The notes under the pieces are model-generated. The model searched no databases, was not told where the DNA came from, and saw only the letters and a program-made list of their open reading frames with translations. Source: a virus. From it: a stretch of 58,534 nt of DNA. The position numbers and the translations under genes were made by a program. Of this stretch, positions 12,529 through 20,894 are shown in pieces. The first letter of the stretch is position 1; the number at the start of each line of letters is the position of its first letter. Location of the stretch: IMG/VR virus record IMGVR_UViG_3300003937_000088, positions 1 to 58,534 of that record; one strand, 5' to 3'.

Positions 12529-12741
12529 ATGATAATGAATGAGATAGTTAAGGTATGGAAGTATACTCTGGGTAGTTTTAATGATGAAAAGACTGAGAGA
12601 TATGATAATATTATTTGTATTCTAAGAACGGGTATATTACTGACTTATCTGTTGACGAATGTCTTTATTGTGGCAGGAGTGGTGAGACACTGGAATTCAG
12701 TTAAAAGTGTATCCATTGATACAGAATACATTAAAAAATAG
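12529..12741 (+). CDS. Small membrane protein
   Basis: A 70-residue protein starting at ATG 12529, directly after the previous stop (ATG 12535 is the alternative). Residues about 27-54 (NIICILRTGILLTYLLTNVFIVAGVV) form a long hydrophobic segment, long enough for one or two membrane passes, with KTERYDN before it. I have seen the ERYDNII...RT.....AGVVRHW pattern in cyanophages. Role unknown. Confidence 0.6.
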   Translation: MIMNEIVKVWKYTLGSFNDEKTERYDNIICILRTGILLTYLLTNVFIVAGVVRHWNSVKSVSIDTEYIKK

Positions 12742-12755
12742 GTTTTAAATATGAT

Positions 12756-12763
12756 TATAAATA
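12756..12763 (+). promoter_or_regulatory. T4-type late promoter motif TATAAATA
   Basis: A perfect TATAAATA lies 15 bp after the 12529 gene stop and 23 bp before the first DnaA-like box. Transcription from it would run through the box cluster. No gene starts nearby, so it may serve a non-coding or primer transcript. Confidence 0.45.
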
Positions 12764-12785
12764 TAAAACTCTTTTTTAACAAGGT

Positions 12786-12846
12786 TGTGGAAAAGTGTAT
12801 TATTTGTGTGGATAAACCCTTATATTAGTTGTTTATCTGTGGAAAA
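12786..12846 (+). promoter_or_regulatory. Three DnaA-box-like 9-mers, same orientation
   Basis: TGTGGAAAA at 12786-12794 and 12838-12846, and TGTGGATAA at 12807-12815. The reverse complements are TTTTCCACA (reported cyanobacterial DnaA box form) and TTATCCACA (E. coli consensus). Three matches in 61 bp, all on one strand, next to AT-rich tandem repeats look like a DnaA binding cluster rather than chance. Confidence 0.55.
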
Positions 12847-12856
12847 CTATGAGTAT

Positions 12857-12900
12857 AGTATCTTCCAAGTATCTTCCAAGTATCTTCTAAGTATCTCTTA
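12857..12900 (+). repeat. Tandem 11-bp repeat array, AGTATCTTCCA
   Basis: Four head-to-tail units: AGTATCTTCCA (12857-12867 and 12868-12878), AGTATCTTCTA (12879-12889) and AGTATCTCTTA (12890-12900). A fifth related unit, AGTATCTCATA, occurs at 12923-12933. The array begins 10 bp after the third DnaA-like box. Eleven-base periodicity keeps sites on one face of the helix, as iterons do. Confidence 0.75.
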
Positions 12901-13050
12901 AACCTTAGATCTAATATCTTTAAGTATCTCATAAACCTCACATCTTATGCAAGTTTAGCGAGCGTATCATGGAGAGCGCGGTTTGTCAACCCACGGGACG
13001 CGAAATTTTTCTCGACGAGACATAAATTGTAACATAAAGACATCTTATAG

Positions 13051-13058
13051 TATAAATA
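13051..13058 (+). promoter_or_regulatory. T4-type late promoter motif TATAAATA
   Basis: A perfect match, 89 bp before ATG 13148. The same gene also has a sigma70 promoter, so it may be expressed in two phases. Confidence 0.4.
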
Positions 13059-13090
13059 TATTGATTATAAATCTCGTCTAGATCTTACAT

Positions 13091-13120
13091 TTGACATAGA
13101 ACGAGATTACATGATATAAT
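13091..13120 (+). promoter_or_regulatory. Sigma70 promoter TTGACA-18-TATAAT
   Basis: Both boxes are perfect consensus: TTGACA (13091-13096), 18-bp spacer, TATAAT (13115-13120). A TCTCGACGAGA palindrome (13134-13144) lies just after the expected start of transcription, a good place for a repressor. ATG 13148 follows. Confidence 0.75.
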
Positions 13121-13147
13121 CATACAATAGATATCTCGACGAGAACC

Positions 13148-13327
13148 ATGAACGACTACGAGACATTCTACATATGGGACTACGAGACATCATGTCATGA
13201 TACTCGCGACGAGATGTATATGCTCGACGAGATGCATCATGATACACAATACACATATGATCTAGATGATGAATATGCACGAGATAGCACAGACTATCAG
13301 GCACTTGCATATAGACATTACGCATGA
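13148..13327 (+). CDS. Hypothetical protein rich in Asp, Tyr and Thr
   Basis: A 59-residue frame from ATG 13148, four bases after a palindrome and behind a consensus promoter. It is unusually rich in D, Y, T, M and H (for example DYETFYIWDYETSCHDTRDEMY) and has internal repeats of DYET and DE(M). The composition differs from neighbouring genes. Part of the low complexity comes from repeated GACGAG sequence. Function unknown. Confidence 0.5.
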   Translation: MNDYETFYIWDYETSCHDTRDEMYMLDEMHHDTQYTYDLDDEYARDSTDYQALAYRHYA

Positions 13328-13333
13328 TATAAT
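13305..13333 (+). promoter_or_regulatory. Sigma70-type promoter TTGCAT-17-TATAAT
   Basis: TTGCAT (13305-13310), 17-bp spacer and a perfect TATAAT (13328-13333) directly after the 13148 gene stop. It drives the gene at 13358. Confidence 0.6.
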
Positions 13334-13357
13334 ACGTAAACATCACACGAGATACAC

Positions 13358-13510
13358 ATGTACGCACAGAAACGAATTGTGAGTGTTACATTAGACATTG
13401 AGTGTTATGAAGATCTAGATGTAGAGAATATCGATTGGACTGATATTCTAGGTCTAGAAGGTGATGAACATATTGACATTAGTATAAAAGAAACAGTTAA
13501 CAACTACTAG
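13358..13510 (+). CDS. Conserved small acidic protein
   Basis: A 50-residue acidic protein from ATG 13358. VSVTLDIECYEDLDVENIDWTDILGLEGDE is a pattern I know from several cyanophage hypotheticals. A perfect 10-bp inverted repeat follows 14 bp after its stop. Function unknown. Confidence 0.6.
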   Translation: MYAQKRIVSVTLDIECYEDLDVENIDWTDILGLEGDEHIDISIKETVNNY

Positions 13511-16774: not shown

Positions 16775-17527
16775 ATGGCAAAGGGATTCACAGTAAAGGC
16801 AAAAACGCCGGTCAAAAAAACTGCAGAGTGGGATTATGATAAAGCAAAAGAGATGGTAAGAGGAAAGGCAATTGTCTTTTGTCTTCCAGGGAGAGGATGT
16901 TCTTATGCTTATCTAAAGAATTTCGTACAACTTTGTTTTGACTTAGTACAATCGGGAGCAAGCATCCAGATTTCGCAGGACTATTCGTCCATGGTTAACT
17001 TTGCAAGGTGCAAGTGTCTTGGAGCAAATGTATTGCGTGGTCCGGACCAATTGCCCTGGGACGGAAAATTAAAGTATGATTATCAGTTATGGATTGATAG
17101 TGATATTATTTTTAATACTGAGAAGTTTTGGCAATTGGTTCTAATGGATCAAGACATTGCATCCGGATGGTATGCCACAGAAGATGGTAGAACGACCTCA
17201 GTAGCACACTGGATGGAAGAGGATGATTTCCGTAATAATGGCGGTGTGATGAATCATGAAACGGTTGAGAGTATTTCAAAGCGCAGATCTCCATTCACCG
17301 TAGATTATGCCGGATTTGGATGGTTACTCATCAAGCACGGAGTCTGGGAGAATAGTGAGATGAAGTATCCATGGTTTGCTCCGAAGATGCAAGTCTTCGA
17401 GAGTGGCGAAGTACAGGATATGTGTGGAGAGGATGTCTCATTCTGCCTTGATGCAAAGGAGGCAGGTTTCGAGATTTGGTGTGATCCTCGTGTTCGCGTT
17501 GGGCACGAAAAGATGCGAGTAATCTAA
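16775..17527 (+). CDS. Glycosyltransferase (GT-A fold) candidate
   Basis: A 250-residue protein with a DSD metal motif at 108-110 (LWIDSD) and a Rossmann-like N-terminal half (AIVFCLPGRGCSYAYLKNFV). A C-terminal GEDVSFCLDAKEAGFEIWCDP is the usual acceptor-site block of family 2-like glycosyltransferases. It could add sugar to modified bases, to a virion protein, or to host LPS. Cyanophages commonly carry such a gene. Substrate unknown. Confidence 0.7.
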   Translation: MAKGFTVKAKTPVKKTAEWDYDKAKEMVRGKAIVFCLPGRGCSYAYLKNFVQLCFDLVQSGASIQISQDYSSMVNFARCKCLGANVLRGPDQLPWDGKLKYDYQLWIDSDIIFNTEKFWQLVLMDQDIASGWYATEDGRTTSVAHWMEEDDFRNNGGVMNHETVESISKRRSPFTVDYAGFGWLLIKHGVWENSEMKYPWFAPKMQVFESGEVQDMCGEDVSFCLDAKEAGFEIWCDPRVRVGHEKMRVI

Positions 17528-17528
17528 G

Positions 17529-17690
17529 ATGGCACGTCAGGAATTTTATAGAATTCTTGTAGATGATAAAATTCTTTATGATCAATTGAGCACTGAAGAA
17601 TTTTTTGATAAGATAGAGGACCTGTCCATAGAATTTTATGAGACAGGTCAATCAGGTAACATTAGAACTGAAATTATTATTGAGGAATAA
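17529..17690 (+). CDS. Hypothetical small acidic protein
   Basis: A 53-residue frame from ATG 17529, one base after the previous stop. FYRILVDDKILYDQLSTEEFFDKIEDLSIEFYETG is helical and acidic; tight linkage supports an operon with the glycosyltransferase. Function unknown. Confidence 0.5.
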   Translation: MARQEFYRILVDDKILYDQLSTEEFFDKIEDLSIEFYETGQSGNIRTEIIIEE

Positions 17691-17698
17691 GGAGTCTT

Positions 17699-17848
17699 AT
17701 GGCAGTACGATCAAAGGTTGGTTTAAATGGTGAAAGAAACATTGAATCAAAACCGAAAAAAACTCGTCAAGGTAGTGGTAAGAACACGACGTATTCTGCA
17801 ACATCCAGAAACGCGGCTCGTAAAAAGTATAGAGGTCAGGGAAGATAA
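17699..17848 (+). CDS. Conserved small basic protein
   Basis: A 49-residue basic protein, with AAGGAG (17689-17694) as ribosome site. MAVRSKVGLNGERNIESKPKK and a lysine/arginine-rich tail (RNAARKKYRGQGR) match short basic proteins of cyanophages. Its charge suggests DNA or RNA binding. Role unknown. Confidence 0.6.
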   Translation: MAVRSKVGLNGERNIESKPKKTRQGSGKNTTYSATSRNAARKKYRGQGR

Positions 17849-17877
17849 TAGATAGTATTAACTATTAAACTTTCTTC

Positions 17878-18552
17878 ATGTCTTGTTTGATCTCAAATTT
17901 ACCTGCCTATGAAGTATGGGTAAGAAAAGAATATCTCACCGATCATCAAAGTGGTCATGGTGAATTTGTAAAGGGCGTCTGGGTATCGGTTAAATCGATG
18001 CCTGGGCGTGCTTTTTATTTTGAAACGTACTTACCAGAGTATGCCGCAATGTATGATAAGTTACCTATAAGCGCGTTTGTCTCGTCTCCGGAAAAACCAA
18101 CTCCTGATATGACACTTCATAATCTACAATTTTGGAACTGTATGGATTATGGTGTTACAACAATTCAAAAGCAATTCATTGGTTCAATGCATTTTGAAGT
18201 TTATACTCGTGATTATGGAACTCAAACGGGCACTTATGTTTGCACGATCGATAATTATCATCAAGATGCTGATGCAATTGATTATTCGACCAGTGAAAAT
18301 CCATCAGAACACAAGTCTCATAACCTAATTGAACTTGATAATGGGCAGTTCTGTCTCTATCCAAATAATAGAACTCGTATTTTTGATAATAGTCTGACAC
18401 CAGAGACGCCAAAGATTCCAGATTTTAAAGTTTCGACTGTTTATTACCAGGTAGAAAATGGTCATGATCGTGATGGACTTGGTAATGATGACAATTATTT
18501 TTGGAAAACTGCCAAAGAACATAAAACCGAGGATCAAATTCCTAATTATTAA
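17878..18552 (+). CDS. Conserved protein next to gp25
   Basis: A 224-residue protein just upstream of the late promoter for gp25. It is strand-rich with few charged helices (YEVWVRKEYLTDHQSGHGEFVKGVWVSV). No motif was identified. It may be a virion or baseplate-associated protein, based on position only. Confidence 0.5.
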   Translation: MSCLISNLPAYEVWVRKEYLTDHQSGHGEFVKGVWVSVKSMPGRAFYFETYLPEYAAMYDKLPISAFVSSPEKPTPDMTLHNLQFWNCMDYGVTTIQKQFIGSMHFEVYTRDYGTQTGTYVCTIDNYHQDADAIDYSTSENPSEHKSHNLIELDNGQFCLYPNNRTRIFDNSLTPETPKIPDFKVSTVYYQVENGHDRDGLGNDDNYFWKTAKEHKTEDQIPNY

Positions 18553-18554
18553 GT

Positions 18555-18562
18555 TATAAATA
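18555..18562 (+). promoter_or_regulatory. T4-type late promoter TATAAATA for the baseplate genes
   Basis: A perfect consensus, 19 bp before ATG 18581 of gp25. It starts the long baseplate transcript (gp25, gp6 and the 4009-residue gene, packed with 1-bp gaps). Confidence 0.8.
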
Positions 18563-18580
18563 AAGAAAAACTCCTTGTCA

Positions 18581-18982
18581 ATGGCCATTCAAAGGATATC
18601 AAGAGCATTTAAAGATATTAGTTTGTCTTTTGACGCACATCCTATCACCAAAGATCTACAAATATTAAAAAATGAGAACGCGATTCGTAGATCCGTAAGA
18701 AATATAGTAGAAACTATCCCCACTGAAAGATTTTTTAATTCCTTATTAGGATCTGAAGTGAGAAGTAGTCTCTTCGAATTTGTTGATTTTGGTACTGCAT
18801 CAGTAATTCAAAATCAAATAGAGATTGCACTTGAAAACTTTGAACCAAGAATTGATAACGTACAGGTCCAGGTTGATCCTTTTCCGGATAGGAATACCTT
18901 TAATGCTACAATCATCTTTGATATCATCGGACAAGAGTTTCCAACTCAAGAATTTTCTTTCCTATTAGAGGCAACGAGATAA
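18581..18982 (+). CDS. gp25: gp25-like baseplate wedge protein
   Basis: A 133-residue protein from ATG 18581 (a TTG at 18575 would add two residues). FKDISLSFDAHPITKDLQILKNENAIRRSVRNIVETIPTERFF is the typical start of the T4 gp25 family, followed by the EFVD (62-65) and QIEIALENFEPR blocks. In T4 gp25 joins the baseplate wedge near the sheath. One base separates it from gp6, with which it interacts in the baseplate. Confidence 0.9.
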   Translation: MAIQRISRAFKDISLSFDAHPITKDLQILKNENAIRRSVRNIVETIPTERFFNSLLGSEVRSSLFEFVDFGTASVIQNQIEIALENFEPRIDNVQVQVDPFPDRNTFNATIIFDIIGQEFPTQEFSFLLEATR

Positions 18983-18983
18983 T

Positions 18984-20894
18984 ATGCCTTTTACTAAGTA
19001 TACAAATCTAGATTTTGATCAAATAAAAACATCCATCAAGGATTATCTTCGTGCAAATTCAACTTTCACCGATTTTGATTTTGAGGGATCTAACTTTTCT
19101 GTCTTAATAGACACTCTAGCATATAACACATATATCACAGCATTCAACTCAAATATGATTGTGAATGAATCCTTTTTGGATTCTGCCACTCTCAGAGAGA
19201 ATGTTGTTTCATTAGCAAGAAATATTGGTTATGTACCCCGCTCTAGAACCTCTGCAAGGGCACAAATATCATTTTCAATACAAAGACCCGATGGAGATTC
19301 ATCTGCTCAGGTGACGCTTCAGAGAGGTCTTGTATGCACAGGCACTTCTGCTAATACTTCATACGTATTTTCAATACCCGAGGACCTTACTAGAGGTTTT
19401 GTTAATGGAGTTGCAACTTTTGATAATATTGAAATTTATGAAGGCACATATTTAACCAAACAATTCTTATATGATGGTTCTCTCGATCAAAAATTTATCA
19501 TTGATAATTCATTTGTCGATACCTCTACCTTAAAAGTTTATATCAAAAAAGAAAATGATATAGGAATTGGGATCGAATACTCTTTAGTTGATAATATTGT
19601 TAATGTAACTCCAAGTTCTCAGATTTATCTTCTTCAAGAGATACAAGATGAAAAATATCAATTGCTTTTTGGTGATGGATTAATAGGAAAAAAACTTGGA
19701 ACCGATCAAAATTCCGATGGTAATATAATTGTTGCCAATTATATTATATCAAATGGGATTGAAGGCAATGGAGTATCTAATTTCTCCATGGCTGGAAGTT
19801 TTTTGACATCAGAAAACAACAATATCAATCCATCTAATATAACAATCACGTTAAATCGTGCATCTCAGAATGGATCTGAAATTGAATCTATTGATTCAGT
19901 TAGATATTACGCTCCAAAGATATATTCTGCACAATCTAGAGCAGTAACGGGTCGTGATTATGAGGCAATTATTAAGAGCATTTATCCAGATACAGAATCT
20001 GTTGCCGTGGTTGGTGGAGAAGAGATGGTTCCTCCACAATTTGGTACTGTAAATATCAGCATTAAACCAAAAAATGGAACTTTTGTCTCTGATTTTAATA
20101 AATCTAGAATTTTATCACAATTAAAACAATATACTGTCTCTGGAATAAACCAAAAAATAACAGATCTCAAAATTTTATATGTTGAAATTGATTCTTCAGT
20201 TTATTATGACTATTCAAGAATATCAACTGCCGAAACTTTGAAAACAAGAGTGTTGGATACCCTTAAAACGTACTCAAATTCTTTAGAAATTAACAAATTT
20301 GGAGGAAGATTTAGATATAGTAAAATTCAACAAATTATTGACAATACTAATACTTCTATAACTTCTAATATTACTAAGGTTAGGATTAGAAGAGATTTAA
20401 AAGCAATTATAAATCAATTTGCACAGTATGAATTGTGTTATGGAAATAGATTTCATATAAATTCAACTGGATATAACATTAAATCGACAGGATTTAGAAT
20501 TGCATCTGATCCTGATGTTGTTTATTTGACAGATATTCCCAATTCTGATGGAATGACAGGAATTTTGTCAATTGTAAAACCAGTTAGTAATGAATCGACA
20601 AGAGTTGTTGTAAAATCAGCAGGAACTGTTGATTATATTAAAGGTGAACTTAATATTAACACTATAAAAATTACTTCAACAGAAAAACAAAACAATATTA
20701 TTGAAATTCAGGCATTCCCAGAGTCAAATGATGTGGTTGGATTGAAAGATTTATATCTTAATTTTAACATCTCAGCAAGTTCAATAAATATGGTGAAGGA
20801 TGTTATTTCATCAGGAGACGAAATATCGGGAACGGTATTTAATAGAGACTATTACACATCAAGTTACTTAAACGGGAATTTAATAAGAGAGTAG
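18984..20894 (+). CDS. gp6: gp6-like baseplate wedge protein
   Basis: A 636-residue protein. The FDQIKTSIKDYLRANSTFTDFDFEGSNFSVLIDTLAYNTYITAFNSNMIVNESFLDSA start and SVRYYAPKIYSAQSRAVTGRDYEAII (central) are hallmarks of the T4 gp6/J-like baseplate wedge family. T4 gp6 is about 660 residues, so the size fits. Gp6 dimers link the wedges into the ring around the hub. It lies in T4 order after gp25. Confidence 0.92.
   Translation: MPFTKYTNLDFDQIKTSIKDYLRANSTFTDFDFEGSNFSVLIDTLAYNTYITAFNSNMIVNESFLDSATLRENVVSLARNIGYVPRSRTSARAQISFSIQRPDGDSSAQVTLQRGLVCTGTSANTSYVFSIPEDLTRGFVNGVATFDNIEIYEGTYLTKQFLYDGSLDQKFIIDNSFVDTSTLKVYIKKENDIGIGIEYSLVDNIVNVTPSSQIYLLQEIQDEKYQLLFGDGLIGKKLGTDQNSDGNIIVANYIISNGIEGNGVSNFSMAGSFLTSENNNINPSNITITLNRASQNGSEIESIDSVRYYAPKIYSAQSRAVTGRDYEAIIKSIYPDTESVAVVGGEEMVPPQFGTVNISIKPKNGTFVSDFNKSRILSQLKQYTVSGINQKITDLKILYVEIDSSVYYDYSRISTAETLKTRVLDTLKTYSNSLEINKFGGRFRYSKIQQIIDNTNTSITSNITKVRIRRDLKAIINQFAQYELCYGNRFHINSTGYNIKSTGFRIASDPDVVYLTDIPNSDGMTGILSIVKPVSNESTRVVVKSAGTVDYIKGELNINTIKITSTEKQNNIIEIQAFPESNDVVGLKDLYLNFNISASSINMVKDVISSGDEISGTVFNRDYYTSSYLNGNLIRE

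Follow-up and report, generated by a model that had tools for sequence, protein, structure and literature searches.

The window analysed here comprises 58,534 nucleotides of an IMG/VR fragment from a T4-like cyanomyovirus; among named phages, Synechococcus phage S-SKS1 is its closest relative. A cluster of putative DnaA boxes occupies a non-coding region flanked by small rightward genes, with gp25-gp6 lying 5.7 kb further downstream. The features of this region and its neighbours are as follows.

12726..12769, no strand assigned: AT-rich element, candidate unwinding element, with a conserved core AGGTTTTAAATATGATTATAAATATAAAAC at 12740-12769
12756-12763: late-promoter-like octamer TATAAATA, inside the AGGTTTTAAATATGATTATAAATATAAAAC core
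12786..12794, minus strand: DnaA box 1, TTTTCCACA, kept in the 15 closest box-bearing relatives
12807..12815, minus strand: DnaA box 2, TTATCCACA, 21 bp (about two helical turns) from box 1
12838..12846, minus strand: DnaA box 3, TTTTCCACA, 31 bp (about three helical turns) from box 2
12857..12945, plus strand: tandem AGTATCTTCCA units and a diverged 33-bp repeat (TRF), number not conserved
12961..12989, minus strand: leftward sigma70-type promoter, with TTGACA at 12984-12989, a 17-bp spacer and an extended -10, TGA-TACGCT (-10 at 12961-12966)
13010..13140, no strand assigned: TCTCGACGAGA-type near-palindromes (13010, 13071, 13102, 13133), candidate operators, continuing into the small ORF
13091..13120, plus strand: rightward sigma70 promoter TTGACA-18-TATAAT, 12/12 match
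13148..13327, plus strand: small ORF of 59 aa without a family match, following the rightward promoter
13358..13510, plus strand: small ORF, 50 aa, phrog_12516, syntenic anchor
18575..20894, plus strand: baseplate wedge genes gp25 and gp6, 5.7 kb to the right, serving as synteny anchor

Relatives of the 59-aa ORF (13148..13327) were found in S-SKS1, S-SRM01 and AG-345-L05, and the equivalents of the rightward promoter in S-SKS1 and AG-345-L05 have 17-bp spacing. From 13010 to 13350, TCTCGACGAGA-type near-palindromes surround this promoter and recur inside the small ORF, an arrangement seen in many cyanomyoviruses; the motif is also found in S-SKS1, S-SRM01, S-T4, P-SSM2, AG-345-L05, AG-345-F15 and S-BM3, and is possibly the operator of a phage regulator. 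An Rfam search gave no match, and no intrinsic terminators were found.

Boxes were scored with the pattern TTWTCCACA. The first-pass annotation had reported three DnaA-like 9-mers on one strand within 61 bp, two of the form TTTTCCACA and one TTATCCACA, and the letters at 12786, 12807 and 12838, all on the minus strand, bear this out. One further match lies elsewhere in the 58.5-kb window, giving a total (4, against 2.3 expected) that is not unusual. The clustering is unusual: across the whole window, not one of 1500 letter-permuted 9-mers occurred three times on the same strand in 61 bp. When the same permutation test was applied to whole relatives of 207-208 kb, the count was 7 of 1500 for G001 and 4 of 1500 for S-SKS1, both of which carry the box cluster at the same place as the window.

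The region contains a cluster of host-form DnaA boxes, as in an oriC-type origin. An 8-mer scan of the DNA preceding dnaN in 30 host-family genomes ranked GTGGAAAA first, and one host oriC beside dnaN contains five copies of TTTTCCACA, so that the phage motif corresponds to the host DnaA-box form. Cyanobacterial DnaA binds TTTTCCACA in vitro, and TTTTCCACA boxes in a small intergenic cluster are a feature shared with the oriC of Cyanothece, Anabaena and S. elongatus, with three boxes in Cyanothece (PMC4674748). The dnaA gene was present in 60 of 61 host-family genomes and absent from all six phages tested. Host oriC lies mostly beside dnaN, whereas the phage locus has no dnaA and its boxes form one exchangeable module. 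Three direct boxes in a row did not occur in four host genomes tested; the host boxes found came as pairs or in mixed orientation, some of them beside dnaN and others not.

A search of related cyanophage genomes, which the first-pass annotation had proposed as a check, recovered the cluster in S-SKS1 and some two dozen relatives, and boxes in other layouts in further lineages. The S-SKS1 counterpart is intergenic, with three boxes spaced 21/21 bp, two of them of the TTATCCACA form; compared with the window, its boxes show a difference at the W position alone (TTTTCCACA versus TTATCCACA), although the spacers have diverged. The same holds more widely: about two dozen IMG/VR relatives, like S-SKS1, have near-constant box offsets and the TTWTCCACA form, with diverged spacers. 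Among three-box loci following the AT-rich core, spacings were 21/31 (n = 15), 21/22 (n = 9) and 21/21 (n = 1, S-SKS1), and the spacings of the main layouts are all near whole helical turns. Two other sets, L039 and L100/L108, have three boxes after the core in differing layouts.

Elsewhere in the family the number and placement of boxes at this same locus vary; its position is near 151.4 kb in S-SKS1 and near 19.3 kb in S-PM2. Three boxes were found in S-PM2, on the far side of the AT-rich DNA, two exact boxes in S-BM3, two boxes 21 bp apart plus one partial in S-SM2, and one box plus one partial in S-SCSM1. Four exact boxes in AG-345-O18 lie on both sides of the AT-rich DNA, as do the boxes of DSL-LC03, where 7 of 13 genome-wide boxes flank a TTCTCAATA array on both sides. 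Syn9 has two boxes; the Syn9 and DSL-LC03 loci were identified partly via their boxes. The locus contains no exact boxes in P-SSM2, S-T4, Bellamy, S-SRM01, S-CAM7, Sf-FS3 or SynMITS9220M01. In S-PM2 (AJ630128) an annotated tRNA cluster at 17492-19333 also covers the DnaA boxes; ARAGORN detected no tRNA between 17500 and 27500, and the coordinates of the annotated cluster look shifted.

Across 13 near-complete genomes, 21 of 80 boxes fell at the locus against 0.23 expected (p about 5e-35). With S-SKS1, G001, Syn9 and DSL-LC03 removed, the four genomes where selection bias is most likely, 6 of 44 boxes remained at the locus (p about 3e-9). An unbiased set was also assembled from 128 loci for which the AT core or the leftward promoter was the sole selection criterion, and these were grouped into 51 sequence clusters. 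In the cluster representatives, picked regardless of boxes, box density in the slot between these two elements was 28-fold that of flanking DNA, and an unbiased scan for the 8-mers most often repeated in the slot returned TCTCAATA/TTCTCAAT and TGTGGAAA/GTGGAAAA. Exact boxes occurred in 8 of the 51 clusters and were missing in 43. Even in the window's own sequence cluster, 4 of 25 members have no DnaA boxes, as is the case for many other lineages. Because the majority of lineages retaining the rest of the locus have no exact boxes, DnaA cannot be the general initiator of the family.

In box-less lineages the slot holds other motifs, chiefly TTCTCAATA. This alternative repeated motif (TTCTCAATA / TATTGAGAA) was found in at least seven lineages (L003, L004, L005, L042, L053, L059, L064, L312). 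Upstream of dnaN, 30 host-family genomes showed no copy of it, and it was rejected as a host oriC motif. We suspected TTCTCAATA to be a cyanobacterial Fur-type box; a literature search returned no paper supporting this.

The first-pass annotation had also described four and a half tandem 11-bp units as iterons. The AGTATCTTCCA units do start 10 bp past the third box, at 12857, but TRF gave 3.6 copies (12857-12896) rather than four and a half, with the diverged 33-bp repeat at 12881-12945. The AGTATCTT repeat varies from 0 to 4 copies among otherwise near-identical relatives. Owing to this variation, the 11-bp repeats were rejected as conserved iterons, also in the comparison with T4 oriE; they are probably slippage products, and not essential iterons.

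To the left of the boxes, the AT-rich element is among the five least stable 40-60 bp sites of the window by computed stability. Its instability rank among more than 5,000 sites was 2 in G001, 12 in S-SKS1 and 19 in P-SSM2. Such an adjacent AT-rich element, here of low computed stability, is a further feature shared with oriC-type origins. The AT-rich core alone, used as a query, matched 62 IMG/VR contigs, and was single-copy in all three records that had it, out of seven tested. Since the core contains the late-promoter octamer, part of its conservation could reflect promoter function.

To the right, the leftward promoter aims through the box slot at the AT-rich DNA, usually with no gene ahead. 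A query for this conserved downstream element, in which the gap was allowed to vary from 3 to 14 bases, found 113 IMG/VR contigs; among the matches listed, TTGACA and the extended -10 were 17 bp apart in every one. The -10 matches TATAAT at 3 of 6 positions, which is why a generic promoter scan misses it, and the promoter call therefore rests on the invariant spacing and the perfect -35. No leftward ORF common to relatives was seen ahead of the promoter in 12 loci. In S-BM3 and S-CAM7 the left-hand neighbour genes are on the minus strand, so that there the leftward transcript could serve genes. An inverted repeat at 12949-12980 (CTTATGC...GCATAAG / CTTGTG...CACAAG) overlaps the leftward -10 in the window and in many relatives, where it could form a hairpin or serve as an operator. 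As a sign of structured RNA, CTTATGC...GCATAAG is partly explained by the extended -10.

A putative promoter transcribing into an AT-rich unwinding element is also the arrangement of the T4 R-loop origins oriF and oriG, for which RNA priming has been proposed (PMC3016281). Those origins differ in using MotA-dependent middle promoters, and cyanomyoviruses have no motA (PMC2984593). In position the locus resembles T4 oriE, which depends on an early promoter (PMC3016281) and is found 1.7 kb before gene 6; its primer RNA runs leftward, antisense to gene 5 (AF158101 annotation). In S-SM2, G001, Syn9, P-SSM2, S-PM2 and S-SKS1, about 3-9 kb separate the cyanophage locus from gp25-gp6 downstream. The locus shares with oriE the position upstream of gene 6, a leftward early promoter (its class judged from sequence), a predicted leftward RNA complementary to rightward genes, and repeats nearby. 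The differences are that oriE is located inside gene 5, with RepEA and RepEB annotated on the minus strand, ORFs of which no counterpart was seen ahead of the leftward promoter in the 12 cyanophage loci; and that a review of T4 replication initiation makes no mention of DnaA and describes no DnaA boxes at oriE (PMC3016281). The correspondence is a parallel in position and in proposed function rather than a demonstrated homology of sequence. In T4 itself, the evenly spaced oriE repeats (AF158101 79424-79570; L492 3427-3570) are 24-bp repeats within the gene 5 coding sequence, and their iteron role may thus be a by-product of protein repeats.

Taken together, the features suggest that a cyanomyovirus replication origin lies here, a conclusion we hold to be rather probable. 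The first-pass annotation had called it origin-like, with host-DnaA boxes; conservation, synteny, recurrence, the adjacent low-stability element and a promoter facing no gene favour that description, while the iterons and GC skew do not. Neither GC nor AT skew gave any origin signal at the locus. The GC-skew switch of an oriC-type origin, another proposed check, was absent in that no inflection occurred there in three genomes; the test is weak, because genes run uniformly in one direction and T4-type phages switch to recombination-dependent replication. The best reading is an origin primed by transcription, with a position like that of T4 oriE; many cyanomyoviruses would have added host-DnaA sites to it.

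Control of transcription by DnaA, or a DnaA decoy, is less likely than an origin. Were the boxes to repress or activate the leftward promoter or TATAAATA, they would form an early/late switch with no part in replication. The octamer, about 20 bp from box 1, does fit the published cyanophage late promoter, NATAAATA (PMC2984593), and the same interval holds two promoters and near-palindromic, operator-like repeats. However, the leftward promoter has no shared ORF ahead of it; in S-PM2 and Syn9, TATAAATA is missing from the AT-rich element while AT-richness and boxes are retained; and the placement of boxes relative to the AT-rich DNA varies, as in S-PM2, DSL-LC03 and AG-345-O18. We regard this explanation as unlikely. 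Phage DNA multiplies during infection, and its copies might instead titrate host DnaA and stop initiation on the host chromosome, in the manner of datA, and the boxes do match the host oriC form. Yet most lineages have only 1-4 boxes, held at one fixed spot by the AT-rich element and promoter and not spread out, and relatives swap the array for unrelated motifs at that spot, which makes a decoy improbable. Equally improbable is that the boxes are sites of another phage or host protein resembling DnaA boxes, or a functionless repeat of rapid turnover like the tandem repeats of the same interval, given the near-identity of window and S-SKS1 boxes amid diverging spacers and their recurrence in many genera.

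Three or more direct DnaA boxes are also common in IMG/VR contigs outside the cyanomyoviruses (L070-L148). Three direct TTWTCCACA boxes fall within about 100 bp in at least 120 IMG/VR stretches; the cyanomyovirus layout of AT-rich element and leftward promoter was present, among the stretches examined, only in L008, L100 and L108. Use of host DnaA by phages may be widespread.

For the proposed transcription-primed origin, the following sequence of events can be envisaged. The leftward RNA would be made by host RNA polymerase early in infection, and host DnaA on the boxes would help to melt the AT-rich DNA or keep it open. The RNA would stay paired as an R-loop and be extended by the phage polymerase as leading-strand primer, and the phage helicase and primase would enter the opened DNA. 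The box array would be an exchangeable module: sister lineages retain the promoter and AT-rich element but have TTCTCAATA or other motifs in the slot, presumably serving other binders. More generally, and with somewhat less assurance than we would need to call it probable, T4-type cyanophages may possess a modular origin, syntenic with T4 oriE, in which the leftward primer promoter and the unwinding element stay constant while the initiator array is exchangeable; many lineages would have recruited host DnaA independently for that array, and others a protein reading TTCTCAATA.

For the very abundant T4-like cyanophages, replication origins are essentially unmapped: the only one given in a review is a predicted theta origin, for Syn9 (PMC2984593), which could be this locus. 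Our literature search, mostly without subscription papers, found nothing linking cyanophages with DnaA boxes at an origin. The present analysis points to a specific 300-bp locus in the laboratory phages S-PM2, Syn9 and S-SKS1, and so makes the origin question directly testable. If the modular organization is true, it would represent a DnaA-assisted origin in T4-like viruses, and the use of host DnaA would link phage replication with an initiation factor of the host, unlike the T4 model.
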